A stretch of 64,000 bases of DNA from Tenericutes bacterium MZ-XQ (GCA_002838205.1 CP017950.1:1494858-1558857), one strand, 5' to 3'. Positions 27,231 through 34,452 are shown, numbered from the stretch's first letter. Translations and numbers: made by a program. The notes: generated by a model not told the origin, from the sequence alone.

Positions 27231-27243
27231 GAAAGCGCTTTTA
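27230..27243. promoter_or_regulatory. cre/LacI-like operator at the start of the symporter-GH31 transcript
   Basis: AGAAAGCGCTTTTA contains the palindrome AAAGCGCTTT and matches TGNAANCGNWWNCA with two mismatches. It starts at the end of the -10 box, so it would cover the transcription start and repress. It may be read by a local LacI-type repressor instead of CcpA. Confidence 0.55.
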
Positions 27244-27259: not shown

Positions 27260-28750
27260 ATGGAAAAGAAACAAAATTTAACAATGAAAAATATTTTTTC
27301 GTATGCTGTTGGGGATTTATATGGTGGCGGAGCTTTTTTCATTATAGGTGCGTTATTTTTAGTATTTTTAACAGATGTTGCAAAAATCACACCAGCACTT
27401 GCTGGTACAATCATCTTAATCGGTAAAGTATGGGATGCAGTTACTGATCCAACCATGGGTTACATTTCTGACAATACAAAAAGCAAATATGGTCGAAGAA
27501 GAATATACTTTTTAATAGGGATCATCCCAATCTTTTTGTCGTGGTTTTTATTATGGTCTTCTTTTGGATTATCTAGCGATGTAGCCAAATTTATTTATTA
27601 CTTACTCGTTTATCTATTATTTAATACTGTATTTACATTAGTCATGGTGCCTTATAACTCTATGCCTTCAGAGATGACGAATCAATATCAAGAACGATCA
27701 AAACTGATTACCATAAGAATGTTATTCTCACAAGGTGGTATGTTATTGGGTGCTGTATTACCACTTACCATTATAAACTTCTTTGATTCGAATCCGAGTT
27801 TAGGTTATATGGTCATGGCTACTATATTTGGTTTAATTTTTTCTATTCCTTGGATTTTTGTTTTCCTTGGAACATTTGAGAAAAAACACATTTTTGAAGT
27901 AACTGAAAAACTACCTTTACCTAAGGTAGCTAAAAAAATATCAAAAGACTTTGGATCCACACTAAAAAACAAGTCATTACGTATTCATACATCTATGTAT
28001 ATAGCAGCTTATGTCTCAATGGATATTTTTAATGCTTTATTAATCTATTTCATTAGAGATTATTTGAATCAATACAAAAACTATCAAGTTTTATTAGGTG
28101 TTGTCGTTATTATTCAAATGTTGTCTTTATTTATCGTAATGAAATTAGTCAACAAATTTGGAAATGCCAAAACCTATAGAATACACGCAACTATTTGGAT
28201 GATTGCAGTATTTGCACTTTTCATGATTAATCAAAATATACCTATTTGGGCATTATTAATCGTCGGTGCTTTTGTTGGTTTGGGATTAAGTGGTTGTGTT
28301 ATGACACCTTACAACATGCTAGCTTTTGTAGTAGATGCAGATGAAATGATTACTACAAAAAGACGTGAAGGTATCTATGCAGGTATGATGACTTTTATGA
28401 GAAAGATAGCTCAAGCAGTCGCATTGTTTTTAGTTGGTGTGGGACTTGAAGCAGTGAATTATCAAGAACCATTAAACGACGTTGTCCAAACACAAACACC
28501 TGAAACTTTGCTTGGTATTCGCTTAATGTTCCTACTTGGACCAGTTGTTCTATTAACTCTAGGTATTATATCTTCTTTTAGATATAAAATATCACCAAAT
28601 AATCATGAAATACTTATGTCTGAGATTTCTAGATTAAAAGCTGGCGGTTCAAAAACAGATGTAGCTTCAGATCATAAACAAATCATTGAAAGCATTACAG
28701 GCCAAGACTATCAAAGCTTATGGAAAAAAGAAGGCGTAAATCATGATTAA
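27260..28750 (+). CDS. GPH-family cation:glycoside symporter (MelB/YihO-like)
   Basis: Imports a glycoside with Na+ or H+. The 496-residue protein has 12 TM helices and the GPH signature KVWDAVTDPTMGYISDNTKSK followed by YGRRRIYFLIG. The C-half carries TPYNMLAFVVDADEMITTKRREG, another conserved GPH segment. It overlaps the start of a YihQ-like GH31 gene by eight bases. In Escherichia coli, YihQ is likewise encoded beside the GPH carriers YihO and YihP. RBS GAGAGGGAG. Substrate is inferred to be the same glycoside cleaved by the GH31 enzyme. Confidence 0.9.
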   Translation: MEKKQNLTMKNIFSYAVGDLYGGGAFFIIGALFLVFLTDVAKITPALAGTIILIGKVWDAVTDPTMGYISDNTKSKYGRRRIYFLIGIIPIFLSWFLLWSSFGLSSDVAKFIYYLLVYLLFNTVFTLVMVPYNSMPSEMTNQYQERSKLITIRMLFSQGGMLLGAVLPLTIINFFDSNPSLGYMVMATIFGLIFSIPWIFVFLGTFEKKHIFEVTEKLPLPKVAKKISKDFGSTLKNKSLRIHTSMYIAAYVSMDIFNALLIYFIRDYLNQYKNYQVLLGVVVIIQMLSLFIVMKLVNKFGNAKTYRIHATIWMIAVFALFMINQNIPIWALLIVGAFVGLGLSGCVMTPYNMLAFVVDADEMITTKRREGIYAGMMTFMRKIAQAVALFLVGVGLEAVNYQEPLNDVVQTQTPETLLGIRLMFLLGPVVLLTLGIISSFRYKISPNNHEILMSEISRLKAGGSKTDVASDHKQIIESITGQDYQSLWKKEGVNHD

Positions 28751-30704
28751 TCGTATCAAAGATGGTTTTGAAATTTATATAGATGATTTGCTTCTTTTAA
28801 GGCACAGTCTAGATAAACCTTGCTTATTTATCGGAGAAAAAGCCTTAAATATCGAAATGACAAATGGTGAGTTTGATTTTCAAGATGAGACACATTTTGA
28901 ACCTGTTAAATCATTTAAAATTAAAGATAATATTATCGATTTGAATGACTTTAAAATCGAAGTTATCTCAAACCAAGAAGGACAACTTAGTTTAAAATTT
29001 ATCAATTTGAATCAACCCTTTAGACTTAACATAAACTCTCATTTGGAAGAGCGCATATTTGGTATGGGTGAACATTTCACAGATTTGAATCTAAAAGGAA
29101 ATATCGTGAGAAACTGGGTTGAAGAACATATTACGAGAAAGCAGATATATCATAAAATTATTAGACGTATGTTTAAATTAAAGCCTAAAAGATGGCCTTT
29201 TAAGGACTATAAAACATATTTTGTAGCACCAACTTTTGTCTCTTCACAAAACTATTTTTGTCATGTTGATACATATGGCTATGCAATATTTGATTTTTCA
29301 AAAAATGATGAACACCAGATATCTTTGTATTCAAAAGTAAATCAGATTGATTTCGTAAAAAAACCGTCACTTCTTGAACTATCCGGCGCATTAAGTCATC
29401 ACATAGGTAAATTACCAAAATTGCCCGATTGGATTTATGATGGCATGATTTTTTCAATTCAAGGTGGGACTGAAATCATTAATCGAAAACTCAATAAATT
29501 AATAGACTATGATGCGAAAATCAACGGGGTTTGGTCCCAAGATTGGTGTGGTGAGTTATATACTTTTTTCGGTAAACAAGTTTATTGGAACTGGGAAGTA
29601 GATCATTTGCTATATCCAAATTTGAAAGATCAAATCAGCAAATGGCATAAAAAAGGTATTCATTTTCTTGCTTATATAAACCCTTATTTAAATGCAAATG
29701 GTGATATGTATAAGGAAGCATTAGCGCTTGATTACTTAGTTAAAAACGCTGATGGAACTCCGTTTTTAACAAAAGCAACCTCATTTTTGTTTGGTATTGT
29801 TGATTTAACACATAAAGATGCTTATACATGGTTTAAAAACATCATTAAAACAAACTATATTGACTTAGGTATTATGGGTTGGATGGCTGATTTCGGGGAA
29901 TATTTACCTGTAAAATGTAAACTTCATTCTGGGACTGCCGAAGAGCTTCATAATCACTGGCCAGATCTTTGGGCAAAACTTAATAGAGAAGTTCTAGAAG
30001 AGTCAAACCTATTATCATCAGCATTATTCTTTAATAGAGCAGGTTATAAAGATAATAGTCGTTATACAACATGCATTTGGAATGGAGATCAACATGTTGA
30101 CTTTACGGATGACTTTGGCATGGCTTCTGCTTTAAGAGCGATGTTGTCATTATCATTTTCAGGTATAGGATTTTCTCACTCTGATATCGGAGGCTATACG
30201 ACAGTACCTTTTATTAAACGTTCTAAAGAACTTTATATACGTTGGTTAGAAATGAACACATTTACTCCTATCATGAGATCTCATGAAGGTAATAAACCTT
30301 GGAAAAATGTTCAATTTGACCATGACGATCAAGTATTAAGACTTACATCGTTTTTTACAAATATACATTACATGTTAAAGCCTTATTTCTTAGCAGTGGA
30401 AAATGAATATCAAGCTAGTGGATACCCTATGATTAGACCTCTTATGTTTCATTTTGATTATTTTACAGACAAAGCTTTTATGTTAGGTAAAGATCTCATA
30501 GTCTTTCCAGTCTTATCGAAAGGTAAACGCAAAATATCGATACATATGCCTGAAGGAACATGGATTCATCTATTTAGCGGTATAGAGTTTAGTCAAGGAA
30601 CACATATGATTCAAGTACCATTTGGAAGTCCAGCAGTATTCTATCGAAAGGAATCAGAATTTAGCAATATCTTTCTAGAAATCTCAAATTACATACCTAA
30701 ATAA
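28743..30704 (+). CDS. GH31 alpha-glycosidase of the YihQ (sulfoquinovosidase) family with altered sulfonate-site residue
   Basis: Cytoplasmic (no signal peptide) GH31 enzyme of 653 residues. It aligns along its whole length, from memory, with E. coli YihQ: PTFVSSQNYFCHVD, LPDWIYDG, SIQGGTE, WSQDW, LAYINPY, GWMADFGEYLP, NGDQHVDF, HSDIGGYTT and TPIMRSHEGN. Nucleophile Asp383 and acid/base Asp449 are present. Of the YihQ sulfonate-binding set (QQRWY: Gln262, Gln288, Arg301, Trp304, Tyr508), the two Gln, Trp282 and Tyr485 are kept but the Arg is Gln279 (FGKQVYW versus FGKRVMW). A related but possibly non-sulfonated alpha-glucoside is therefore possible. It is cotranscribed with a GPH symporter. 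Confidence 0.88.
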   Translation: MINRIKDGFEIYIDDLLLLRHSLDKPCLFIGEKALNIEMTNGEFDFQDETHFEPVKSFKIKDNIIDLNDFKIEVISNQEGQLSLKFINLNQPFRLNINSHLEERIFGMGEHFTDLNLKGNIVRNWVEEHITRKQIYHKIIRRMFKLKPKRWPFKDYKTYFVAPTFVSSQNYFCHVDTYGYAIFDFSKNDEHQISLYSKVNQIDFVKKPSLLELSGALSHHIGKLPKLPDWIYDGMIFSIQGGTEIINRKLNKLIDYDAKINGVWSQDWCGELYTFFGKQVYWNWEVDHLLYPNLKDQISKWHKKGIHFLAYINPYLNANGDMYKEALALDYLVKNADGTPFLTKATSFLFGIVDLTHKDAYTWFKNIIKTNYIDLGIMGWMADFGEYLPVKCKLHSGTAEELHNHWPDLWAKLNREVLEESNLLSSALFFNRAGYKDNSRYTTCIWNGDQHVDFTDDFGMASALRAMLSLSFSGIGFSHSDIGGYTTVPFIKRSKELYIRWLEMNTFTPIMRSHEGNKPWKNVQFDHDDQVLRLTSFFTNIHYMLKPYFLAVENEYQASGYPMIRPLMFHFDYFTDKAFMLGKDLIVFPVLSKGKRKISIHMPEGTWIHLFSGIEFSQGTHMIQVPFGSPAVFYRKESEFSNIFLEISNYIPK

Positions 30705-30764: not shown

Positions 30765-31295
30765 TTATACGTATTCATAACCTACAGCTATCGCTTTTTG
30801 ATTTACTGGCAATAAAGCTTCTTTTTCACCTGTTAAGAAATGTTTTAAACTTTCTACAATCACTTCTTCTTTAAAGATATTGTTTACTTTTAAGTAAGCA
30901 CCTAGCATAACCATATTAGCAACCTGAGGTTTATTAAGTTCATTTGCAATCTCATTCATTGGTATACCATAGATATGACATTTCTGCTTAACTTTTTCTT
31001 CAATCAATGAAGCATTATAGAAAATGTTTCCTTCGTCTGTAACTAAATCTTGAAATTTATGAAGCGATGGTAGATTAAACACCATTAAATCATCAGCTTT
31101 TTTAAATATTGGTGAGTAAATCGGTTTATCACTAATCGTCACTGCACAGTTTGCAGTACCTCCTCTAGTTTCTGGTCCATATGTAGGTACCCAAACACTA
31201 TATAATCCTTGTAGGTTTGCTGCATAGGCAATGAGTTGTCCTGTAAGCATGACACCTTGGCCACCAAAGCCAGCTATTCTAATTCTTCTAATCAT
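30765..31295 (-). CDS. 2-oxoacid:ferredoxin oxidoreductase, gamma subunit
   Basis: Smallest catalytic subunit (176 residues) of the four-part 2-oxoacid:ferredoxin oxidoreductase. The family start RIAGFGGQGVMLTGQLIAYA and the GPETRGGTANCAVTISDKPI segment are clear. It overlaps the beta-subunit gene by eight bases and is the last gene of the operon. With leucine dehydrogenase at the head of the operon, a branched-chain 2-oxoacid (2-ketoisovalerate type, VOR) is the most likely substrate; 2-oxoglutarate is the alternative. Confidence 0.92.
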   Translation of the reverse strand: MIRRIRIAGFGGQGVMLTGQLIAYAANLQGLYSVWVPTYGPETRGGTANCAVTISDKPIYSPIFKKADDLMVFNLPSLHKFQDLVTDEGNIFYNASLIEEKVKQKCHIYGIPMNEIANELNKPQVANMVMLGAYLKVNNIFKEEVIVESLKHFLTGEKEALLPVNQKAIAVGYEYV

Positions 31296-32031
31296 GACTC
31301 ATCACATCCTTAAATACTCCAAGTGGGAAGATAGGAACCATTTCTTCTTTGACACGATTCATTGCGTCAAATGGCTTCATTTTCCAATTTACCGGACAAG
31401 TCGATAAAACTTCAATCATCGAAAACCCTTTACCATCAATTTGATATTGGAAAGCTTTTTTAATCGCTTTTTTAGCTTTTCTTATGTTTGGAACATCAGT
31501 TAGCATGACACGTTCTACATAAGCAGCACCGTCTACTTGTCCCAAAATCTCTGACATCTTAATCGGACCACCATGTAATGCTTGAACTCTACCATCTTGA
31601 GATGTTGTTGTTTTTTGTCCAACTAATGTTGTAGGGGCCATTTGACCACCAGTCATACCATAAGTGGTGTTGTTCGCATAAATAACAGTGATGTTTTCTC
31701 CACGATTTGCTGCATGAATTGTTTCAGCAATACCAATCGATGCTAAATCTCCATCGCCCTGATAAGTAAATACAATGTTTTCAGGCAATGAACGTTTTAC
31801 ACCAGTTGCAACCGCACAAGCTCTACCATGAGCTGCTTGTTGCATGTCACAATTGATATATTCATAACTAAACACTGAACATCCAACAGATGCAATACCC
31901 ACTGTGTGATCTAAAACACCTAGTTCATCTAATACTTCCGCTACCAATTTATGAAGTATACCATGTGTACACCCTGGACAATAATGTGTTCGATTATCTG
32001 TAAGTCCCAGACTTCTTTCATATTTAATCAT
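31288..32031 (-). CDS. 2-oxoacid:ferredoxin oxidoreductase, thiamine diphosphate-binding beta subunit
   Basis: Binds thiamine diphosphate and, with the alpha subunit, decarboxylates a 2-oxoacid to the acyl-CoA, reducing ferredoxin. The 247 residues start with RTHYCPGCTHGILHKLVAEV and carry the ThDP/Mg motif GDGDLASIGIAETIHAANRG followed by NNTTYGMTGGQMAPTT. There is no ferredoxin domain in the subunit. Its start abuts the alpha-subunit stop (next base). Confidence 0.93.
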   Translation of the reverse strand: MIKYERSLGLTDNRTHYCPGCTHGILHKLVAEVLDELGVLDHTVGIASVGCSVFSYEYINCDMQQAAHGRACAVATGVKRSLPENIVFTYQGDGDLASIGIAETIHAANRGENITVIYANNTTYGMTGGQMAPTTLVGQKTTTSQDGRVQALHGGPIKMSEILGQVDGAAYVERVMLTDVPNIRKAKKAIKKAFQYQIDGKGFSMIEVLSTCPVNWKMKPFDAMNRVKEEMVPIFPLGVFKDVMSHD

Positions 32032-33102
32032 CTATTCCACCACTCTTTCATCAAAAGTCATGATAGCTTCAACAATTTCTTCTGGTTCTGGAACAATACC
32101 ACCAGGTCTTCCATAAAATGCTACTTTATGTCTACCTCTATCTGAAATTAAAACGTCATCTAACATTTGTCCTAATGACATTTCTACAACCATTAAACCT
32201 TTAACACTCTTAGGTATTTCACTAAATGCTTTCTTAGGATAAGGCCATAGAGAAATCGGTCTAATCATGCCTACATTCACACCGTTTTCTGCTAAGATTT
32301 CAATAGAAGAACGACAGATTCTTGCTGTTGTTCCATAAGCTACAATGACATAATCTGGATTATTATCCATATTAATCATTTCATATTTTGTTTCGTTTTT
32401 TTCTATTTCTTTATATTTCTTTTGCAGTTTTAAATTATGTTGTTCCAGTTCATTTGGATCTAAGAATAAACTATTTATAACATTTCTACCTTCATGGTGT
32501 TTAGTTCCTATAGCTGCCCATGATTTCTTTGGTAGTTCTCTTTTTTTGACTGGAATATCTAAATCAACTGTTTCCATCATTTGACCAATAAGTCCATCAG
32601 CTAAAATCATGACTGGATTTCTATATGCATCTGCGATATCAAAAGATTCTTTAACCAAGTCAACTGTTTCTTGAACAGATTCTGGAGCTAATACAATCAC
32701 GTGATAATCCCCATTGCCTCCACCACGCGTTGCTTGATAATAGTCACCTTGAGAAGGTTGTATGGTTCCTAATCCAGGACCACCTCTCATGACTGAACCA
32801 ATAACACATGGTAGTTCAGCACCTGCAATATAACTAATACCTTCTTGTTTTAAGGCAATACCTACTGAAGATGATGATGTCATTACTCTTTTTCCAGAAC
32901 CAGCAGCACCATAAACCATATTAATTGCTGCAACTTCACTTTCAGCTTGAACAAACACCTTACCAGCTTCAGGTAATAATTTTGATAAATACTCTGGCAC
33001 TTCATTTTGAGGTGTAATTGGATAGCCAAAATAACAATCTAATCCTGCTTTAATCGCTGCTTTTGCTATCGCTTCATTACCTTTCATCAATACTTTACTC
33101 AT
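32032..33102 (-). CDS. 2-oxoacid:ferredoxin oxidoreductase, alpha subunit
   Basis: The 356-residue subunit contributes the pyrimidine-binding half of the ThDP site and the CoA-binding part. It opens with KGNEAIAKAAIKAGLDCYFG then YPITPQNEVPEYLSK, typical of VorB/KorA proteins, and contains SSSVGIALKQEGISYIAGAE and GGPGLGTIQPSQGDYYQ. It overlaps the ferredoxin subunit gene upstream by four bases. The order ferredoxin-alpha-beta-gamma is the standard four-subunit arrangement. Confidence 0.93.
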   Translation of the reverse strand: MSKVLMKGNEAIAKAAIKAGLDCYFGYPITPQNEVPEYLSKLLPEAGKVFVQAESEVAAINMVYGAAGSGKRVMTSSSSVGIALKQEGISYIAGAELPCVIGSVMRGGPGLGTIQPSQGDYYQATRGGGNGDYHVIVLAPESVQETVDLVKESFDIADAYRNPVMILADGLIGQMMETVDLDIPVKKRELPKKSWAAIGTKHHEGRNVINSLFLDPNELEQHNLKLQKKYKEIEKNETKYEMINMDNNPDYVIVAYGTTARICRSSIEILAENGVNVGMIRPISLWPYPKKAFSEIPKSVKGLMVVEMSLGQMLDDVLISDRGRHKVAFYGRPGGIVPEPEEIVEAIMTFDERVVE

Positions 33103-33331: not shown

Positions 33332-34411
33332 CTATCTTTTAATATAATTGTCATGTAAACGATTAATTGTTTCTATTCTCTTCTTCGCGAATACTTTTGC
33401 TGCAATATGTGTATTGATATTTTCGCTTTCAGCGATATGATAAATGTCTAATAAGCGATCATAAATCTTTTCAATATCTCTAGTAGCACGTCCCACATTG
33501 TAATCTAATAACTCATGATAAACATTAATTAAACCACCAGCATTAATCACAAAATCAGGAGCATATAAAATACCTTTTTCTTTGATCATATCTCCATGAA
33601 TATCTTCATCTAATAATACGTTATTAGCTGTACCAGCAATAATTTTCGCTTTGATTTGCGGAATCGTGTCTGAGTTTAAAGATCCACCTAAAGCACATGG
33701 AACCAATACATCTACATCTAATTTATAAAAATCTTCAGGTTTAACAAACTCTACATCTGGATTTTCTTTTTTAAGTCTTGCGATATGTTTTTCATTGATC
33801 TCAGAAAAATAAACTTTTTTCGCATTGTTCTTTACTAAATGTTTGATTAAATAATAACCCGTTTGCCCTGCGCCTTGAACTGCAAACGTGTATTTTGAAA
33901 TATCCTCATCGCCAAATTGATGCATAAGTGATGCTCTAATACCATGGAATGCTCCAAGCGCTGTCATTGGCGAAGGATTTCCACTCTTACCTTCTAGTCC
34001 AACAACATAATCTGTTTCCATAGCAACAAAATCCATATCTTTAGTTGATGTATTCACATCTTCAGCAGTAATATATCTGCCATTTAAAGATTGAACATAG
34101 CGTCCTAAAGCTCTAAAGTATGCTTCAGATTTAACTTTGTCTGCTTCCCCAATTAATACTGTTTTTCCCCCACCTAAGTTGAGCCCAGCAGCAGCAGCTT
34201 TATAAGTCATACCTCTTGATAATCTTAAACAATCTAACACTGCAGCTTCTTCTGATTCATAGTTCCACAGTCTAGTTCCACCAAGGGCTGGCCCTAATGT
34301 GGTGTTATGAATACATGTAATTCCTTTCAATCCTGTCGTCTTGTCATAAAAATAGACTACCTGCTCATATCTATGTTTGGCCATGTAGTCAAAGTGTTTG
34401 AAATCGCTCAT
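33332..34411 (-). CDS. Leucine/branched-chain amino acid dehydrogenase (Glu/Leu/Phe/Val dehydrogenase family)
   Basis: Oxidatively deaminates Leu, Val or Ile to the 2-oxoacid with NAD+. The 359 residues closely follow Bacillus leucine dehydrogenase: HNTTLGPALGGTRLWNYESE, RGMTYKAAAAGLNLGGGKTV (catalytic Lys), GRYITAEDVNTS and the Rossmann motif VQGAGQTGYYL. I chose the ATG at 34411 because AAGGGAG lies eight bases upstream; the ATG at 34429 would precede the RBS. As first gene before VOR it makes the substrate for that enzyme, so the operon oxidises branched-chain amino acids to acyl-CoA, yielding NADH and reduced ferredoxin. Confidence 0.92.
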   Translation of the reverse strand: MSDFKHFDYMAKHRYEQVVYFYDKTTGLKGITCIHNTTLGPALGGTRLWNYESEEAAVLDCLRLSRGMTYKAAAAGLNLGGGKTVLIGEADKVKSEAYFRALGRYVQSLNGRYITAEDVNTSTKDMDFVAMETDYVVGLEGKSGNPSPMTALGAFHGIRASLMHQFGDEDISKYTFAVQGAGQTGYYLIKHLVKNNAKKVYFSEINEKHIARLKKENPDVEFVKPEDFYKLDVDVLVPCALGGSLNSDTIPQIKAKIIAGTANNVLLDEDIHGDMIKEKGILYAPDFVINAGGLINVYHELLDYNVGRATRDIEKIYDRLLDIYHIAESENINTHIAAKVFAKKRIETINRLHDNYIKR

Positions 34412-34452
34412 TTTAAATCTCCCTTCCATTTGTTAAAAGCACTTACATTTGT

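Follow-up and report, generated by a model that had tools for sequence, protein, structure and literature searches.

The window, by which we mean the whole 64,000-nucleotide stretch of the Tenericutes bacterium MZ-XQ chromosome analysed here, encodes a GH31 glycosidase resembling YihQ and other sulfoquinovosidases (SQases), directly preceded by a symporter of the GPH family [Table 1]. The end of the symporter gene overlaps the start of the glycosidase gene by 8 bases, and the two are thus probably one transcription unit. That a GPH symporter partners the enzyme had been proposed in an earlier, sequence-only reading of the window, and the assignment was borne out by a TIGR00792 score above cut-off and by the retention of the gene pair in relatives (loci L035, L037/L065, L061, L063, L069, L070, L175 and L176; L and G numbers are our handles for sampled loci and genomes). 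Among the named equivalog models, MelB gave the symporter its best score, though one far under the MelB cut-off. The cre/LacI-like palindrome found upstream of the symporter gene has counterparts in L037, where GTAAAGCGTTTACAT occupies the equivalent position, and in L035, where GAAAGCGTTTGTA lies 5' of the GPH gene. This placement suggests catabolite control; a scan of the window for palindromes of the consensus type returned nothing above chance. Downstream of the glycosidase gene, three open reading frames resembling subunits of 2-oxoacid:ferredoxin oxidoreductases (30765-33102) and a further one resembling Leu/Glu dehydrogenases (33332-34429) were noted by eye.

Table 1. Positions, in window coordinates, of the genes, putative operator and codons discussed in the text.
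Feature	Position	Strand	Basis
cre/LacI-like palindrome GAAAGCGCTTTT, possible operator upstream of GPH gene	27231..27242		similar sites in relatives
GPH-family (MFS_2) sugar:cation symporter	27260..28750	+	TIGR00792 251.7 bits (cut-off 231.35); Pfam MFS_2 282 bits
Q-clade GH31 glycosidase (YihQ/SQase-like), 653 aa	28743..30704	+	ORF, profile, alignment, tree, AlphaFold2
Codon of His129, Q-clade invariant, absent from Arg clade	29127..29129	+	clade alignment
Codon of Lys138, Q-clade invariant, absent from Arg clade; rebuilt N-domain loop	29154..29156	+	clade alignment
Codon of Gln279 (YihQ Arg301)	29577..29579	+	alignment to YihQ, SQases
K344-A345-T346-S347 replacing SQase DFGE strand (YihQ 366-369; EFGE in YihQ itself)	29772..29783	+	clade alignment
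Codon of Asp383, catalytic nucleophile (YihQ Asp405)	29889..29891	+	alignment
Codon of Asp449, catalytic acid/base (YihQ Asp472)	30087..30089	+	alignment
Codon of His451 (GDQH; Arg clade mostly GDQS), Q-clade invariant	30093..30095	+	clade alignment

Fold and active site of the window glycosidase

The window GH31 aligned end to end with YihQ at ~39% identity, in agreement with the relationship claimed at the outset, and a phmmer search of the PDB returned YihQ as the top match (5aed, E 5e-159), followed by the SQases 8r56, 6pnr and 5ohy. Both Pfam PF01055 and PF21365 were matched. The AlphaFold2 model of the protein (pLDDT 94.1) found its nearest solved folds exclusively among SQases, with query-normalised TM-scores of 0.91-0.94. 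The score against PRK10426, the NCBIfam equivalog model for YihQ, was 673.3 bits for a cut-off of 553, a threshold that is not diagnostic for SQases, being exceeded also by outgroup proteins whose active-site motif differs. The window GH31 probably has an SQase-like mode of action. We did not file it as a sulfoquinovosidase, because it lacks the defining residue of that class, Arg301, and falls outside the clade of characterised SQases, in a sister clade (support 100/99 for the latter and 99/94 for the Arg-bearing SQases).

Mapping of the protein onto the 678-residue YihQ placed Q262, Q288, R301, W304, D405, D472 and Y508 of the latter opposite Q240, Q266, Q279, W282, D383, D449 and Y485, respectively. 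The catalytic Asp pair and the remainder of the QQRWY motif (Gln262, Gln288, Trp304 and Tyr508) are thus present, as the first reading had stated, and its placement of Gln279 at the site of Arg301 was upheld by phmmer alignments in which this Gln stands opposite the Arg of YihQ, 8r56, 6pnr and 5ohy. Arg301 of YihQ is taken to be the residue contacting the sulfonate; among the papers searched, none contains both YihQ and R301.

Phylogeny and conserved differences of the Q and Arg clades

Relatives were gathered by HMM-based whole-genome searches and by a peptide-pattern scan of contigs. In the resulting 78-protein tree, the window GH31 belonged to a monophyletic group, hereafter the Q clade (ultrafast bootstrap 100, SH-aLRT 99), sister to the Arg-bearing SQases (99/94). 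Gln occupied the position of YihQ 301 in 32/32 proteins of the Q clade, a count that is biased for members found by the contig scan, whose peptide pattern contained the Gln, and unbiased for those found by HMM; all 27 proteins of the sister clade carried Arg. The Gln was invariant across Q-clade proteins sharing 35-40% identity, and the notion of a lone Arg-to-Gln mutant was rejected in view of this 32-member clade. The earlier suggestion of a distinct branch is well founded. Its description of an Arg replaced by Gln is right as to the Gln and overstated as to direction, since the two groups are sister clades and residue 301 varies in the outgroup, which comes from Oscillospirales-like genomes and bears a DMGGF motif; Arg may equally be a gain of the SQase line as a loss from the other. 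With dN/dS values of 0.05-0.14 in the pairs compared (n=6), the Q clade is under purifying selection and, by its place in the protein tree, is an ancient sister branch of the SQases. A third YihQ-related group was also encountered (L149-L167; G729, G582, G699 and further genomes from the same order as G167). It shows DMGGF at the DFGE position, and its residue 301 varies; several of its members exceed the PRK10426 cut-off and would receive the annotation YihQ-type alpha-glucosidase.

The two clades differ at further positions. At YihQ 366-369, the Q clade is devoid of the (D/E/N)FGE strand and shows K/Q/V-x-T-S/T instead, Thr346 being present in 32/32 of its proteins, whereas G and E at YihQ 368 and 369 were found in 27/27 proteins of the Arg clade. 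By its spacing from the nucleophile, this segment should, we assume, match the -1 subsite loop bearing Trp406 of maltase-glucoamylase. Absence of Arg301 and absence of Glu369 were coupled across the Q clade. His129, Lys138 and His451 occurred in no Arg-clade protein, and residues 132-143, around Lys138, form a helix in the AlphaFold2 model. Trp282 (W304) was kept in all Q-clade proteins and Q262 and Q288 were retained; Tyr508 is changed to Phe in a Clostridia subclade. Lys344 was considered as a universal substitute for the Arg and rejected, Lys being found there in just 26 of the 32 proteins.

Genomic settings of Q-type genes

None of the genes of sulfoglycolysis was found within the 64-kb window, as the first reading had noted, but the statement does not extend to the genome: at ~1.862-1.878 Mb, the same chromosome has a complete sulfo-TK operon that includes a canonical Arg SQase (914 bits, HMM). 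Named as in PMC12890257, its genes encode DUF4867, the SQase, two ABC permeases, a solute-binding protein and an SqvD-type SQ isomerase, further the split transketolase SqwG/SqwH, the RpiB-type SqwI and a CitMHS-type exporter, and lastly the CoA-acylating SqwD, SqwK/SqwL and two GntR proteins. This gene content is that of the oxidative variant of the sulfo-TK pathway described from Acholeplasma (Chu 2023, cited in PMC12890257 and PMC11659671). The DUF4867 gene (SftX/SqvB type; L058:15027-15704) is single-copy in this genome and lies directly 5' of the canonical SQase gene; DUF4867 was also noted at related loci.

Most of the sampled Q-clade relatives encode the Q-type gene together with sulfoglycolysis genes; the window copy is unlinked. 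The sulfo-TK operon ends in the GPH and Q-type GH31 genes at L061/62, L063/64, L175 and L176 and in the contig-truncated operons L069 and L070; listed by genome, it runs on to this terminal pair in G034, G027, G367 and G379, and the retrieved operons of G045 and G028 are cut by the end of the stretch or contig. Elsewhere the Q-type gene immediately follows sqwL (L059; by genome, G075), or stands in one row with an Arg SQase, ABC genes and a GPH gene (L049). In the window's genus (G000, G025), G160 and G161 it is unlinked, with an Arg SQase in the genome. Within the window's family, SqwG was found in 8/10 genomes with a Q-type gene vs 6/78 others (Fisher p 1.8e-6, uncorrected for kinship). Both GH31 types co-occurred in seven genomes of a class-wide sample (G000, G075, G507, G367, G379, G279 and G373). 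At L038 (5590-13509) and L056, the Q-type gene adjoins oppositely oriented genes for IclR, Gfo/Idh/MocA, aldehyde dehydrogenase and TPP-enzyme proteins, an arrangement resembling inositol catabolism.

Other Q-type genes come from genomes in which, within the bounds of MAG completeness, no Arg SQase was detected. L178 (G393; 98% complete, 6% contamination) and L179 (G455) share a row of Q-type GH31, sulfofructose transaldolase, sulfolactaldehyde-reductase-like enzyme, SftI-like isomerase and an exporter called TauE-like by eye, no NCBIfam model having matched; L178 also has DUF4867, by sequence match, and a GPH gene. The best PDB match of both transaldolases was BmSF-TAL (275 and 283 bits, the next family scoring 152-154). 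In L185 (G664), the Q-type gene is accompanied by a sulfofructose transaldolase (57% identity), an ordinary SqvD (390.6 bits) and DUF4867, and in L046/L047 it lies beside a full reductive sulfo-TK set, again with ordinary SqvD. In these transaldolase and sulfo-TK clusters, the Q-type enzyme takes the place of the SQase. L184 combines the Q-type enzyme with an isomerase, DUF4867, Fe-ADH, a TauE-like exporter, GPH and RpiB, and other clostridial loci hold RpiB, Fe-ADH, a ROK regulator, isomerase, usually DUF4867, EamA and the Q-type enzyme. The ROK protein was tried as a sugar kinase and rejected: its best scores were with NagC/Mlc regulators, and helix-turn-helix models match its N-terminal part. 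At L045 (4834-12744), L048 (10063-17968) and L054, uxaC directly follows the Q-type gene, ahead of uxuA, an SDR, KDPG aldolase and PfkB, with two Gfo/Idh/MocA proteins and a xylose-isomerase-like protein in the same rows; uxaC and uxuA might point to a glucuronide substrate, a reading set aside because other loci of the subclade are without them.

The isomerases of the sampled loci fell into an SqvD-like group (n=23) and a second clade (n=12) sharing ~25% identity with it. The second clade, whose SftI-like members include L048:5536-6849, L178:5839-7167 and L184:10576-11886, was confined to loci with a Q-type GH31 and no Arg SQase, and always stood beside the former.

Candidate substrates and relation to known enzymes

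Taken together, these comparisons make it moderately probable that the Q-clade proteins form a second sulfoglycolytic clade of GH31 glycosidases, with an alpha-sulfoquinovoside or the glycoside of a close sulfosugar as likely substrate. The GPH symporter, probably co-transcribed with the glycosidase gene, would import the substrate, an alpha-linked sulfoquinovoside or closely related sulfosugar glycoside that would then be hydrolysed in the cytoplasm. GH31 enzymes act by a retaining double displacement in which two Asp residues take part, here presumably Asp383 and Asp449. Gln279, Thr346 and Ser347 in place of the Arg/Glu pair, the conserved Trp282 and the new residues His129, Lys138 and His451 may form a rebuilt C6 pocket and would provide the hold on the sulfonate or its substitute. 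The freed sulfosugar would enter the sulfo-TK pathway, whose genes lie outside the window on the same chromosome, passing through the SqvD isomerase, SqwGH transketolase, SqwI isomerase and SqwD/SqwKL to sulfoacetate.

The invariant absence of the sulfonate Arg and the lack of linkage between the window copy and sulfoglycolysis genes count against a sulfosugar, and the many genomes with both GH31 types suggest that the two differ in substrate. An enzyme specific for a non-sulfonated alpha-glycoside, such as alpha-glucosyl glycerol or the head group of some other glycolipid from plants or algae, imported alongside SQ glycerol, would have no charge to hold, which would account for the missing Arg/Glu pair; the paired loss of charge (Gln for Arg at 301, Ser/Thr for Glu at 369), the Phe for Tyr508 in the Clostridia subclade, the MelB-leaning symporter and the co-resident canonical SQases all fit such a specificity. 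We nevertheless hold it to be unlikely, given that the Q-type recurs in clusters for different types of sulfoglycolytic pathway and is the only such GH31 found in several of these genomes, that Q262, Q288 and W304 are retained, and that three new invariant basic residues have appeared. What tips the balance is that, where a cluster has a sulfofructose-type transaldolase, the Q-type enzyme occupies the position at which an SQase is required. We therefore favour a sulfosugar alpha-glycoside, be it of SQ or of another sulfosugar, over a neutral one. Of the two options left by the first reading, a variant SQase and an enzyme for a neutral alpha-glucoside, the former is better supported by gene context.

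The 12 loci whose isomerase is only ~25% identical to SqvD indicate that the sugar there may not be SQ, and part of the Q clade may thus serve another sulfosugar. For the clade as a whole, a substrate such as an alpha-sulforhamnoside or alpha-sulfofucoside, whose sugar the second-clade isomerases would convert to sulfofructose or an epimer, seems improbable. The restriction of these isomerases to genomes without a detected Arg SQase and their proximity, in L178/L179, to a transaldolase of the sulfofructose type speak for it, as do the facts that no sulfofucosidase is known and that sulforhamnose isomerises to sulfofructose (PMC12421959). Against it stand the unchanged residues at YihQ 262 and 288, the Q-only genomes with ordinary SqvD (L046/47, L185) and the literature surveyed, in which no natural alpha-sulforhamnosides are documented. 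A degenerate or vestigial SQase of lost function, as the absence of a residue thought necessary for SQ binding could imply, is highly improbable and was rejected, being contradicted by the low dN/dS and at odds with the intact Asp pair, the invariance of the Gln between divergent proteins and the conserved operon placement.

There is, in our estimate, a slightly better than even chance that the Q clade amounts to a second GH31 sulfosugar-glycosidase class, one that either binds the sulfonate with no canonical Arg or acts on another sulfosugar fed to its own isomerase, and that would represent an unrecognised entry into sulfoglycolysis in Acholeplasmatales and Clostridia. Among characterised enzymes, the window GH31 is closest to YihQ (5aed/5oht), E. 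rectale SftG (6pnr), B. megaterium BmSQase (8r56) and A. tumefaciens SQase (5ohy), with which it shares whole-length homology and fold, the Asp pair, the Gln pair (Lys/Glu instead in the A. tumefaciens type), Trp304 and Tyr508 and, in most sampled Q-clade relatives, the company of sulfoglycolysis genes. Unlike them, it has Gln for Arg301, K/Q-x-T-S/T for (D/E/N)FGE and the invariant His129, Lys138 and His451. Its partner is a GPH symporter, whereas the canonical SQase of the same genome has an ABC importer.

YihQ serves as the marker gene of sulfoquinovose breakdown, and SQases are presumed to recognise the sulfonate through Arg301; a deep sister clade without this Arg in the SQase slot either breaks the Arg301 rule or reveals a new sulfosugar substrate. 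Surveys currently count the Q clade as standard SQase; it is probably a second type of enzyme for cleaving sulfosugar glycosides, so far uncharacterised. Mariniplasma strain MZ-QX was reported to carry two copies, BK011_07555 and BK011_09290, both treated as YihQ, and the available part of that report makes no mention of a missing Arg or an operon link (PMC13219744). The ratio of the two locus tags (0.8132) matches that of the positions of the two genes described here (0.8126), both corresponding to ~1008-1009 bases per gene, which suggests that BK011_07555 is the window gene. In that report, BK011_07555 forms a long branch, and of the yihQ amplicon variants from rumen, 64% and 47.5% (two primer sets) attach to it (PMC13219744). 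If the two genes are identical, about half of the rumen yihQ amplicons would lie near the Q branch, and many marker counts would reflect enzymes of undefined substrate. A subset of GH188 (SqgA) resembles the Q clade in being a sulfosugar-glycosidase clade with a changed sulfonate site and unusual sulfoglycolytic clusters, but GH188 is an unrelated, NAD-dependent family, and its change is from Leu to Tyr at a backbone contact, whereas in the Q clade the Arg side chain itself is absent (PMC11465081).
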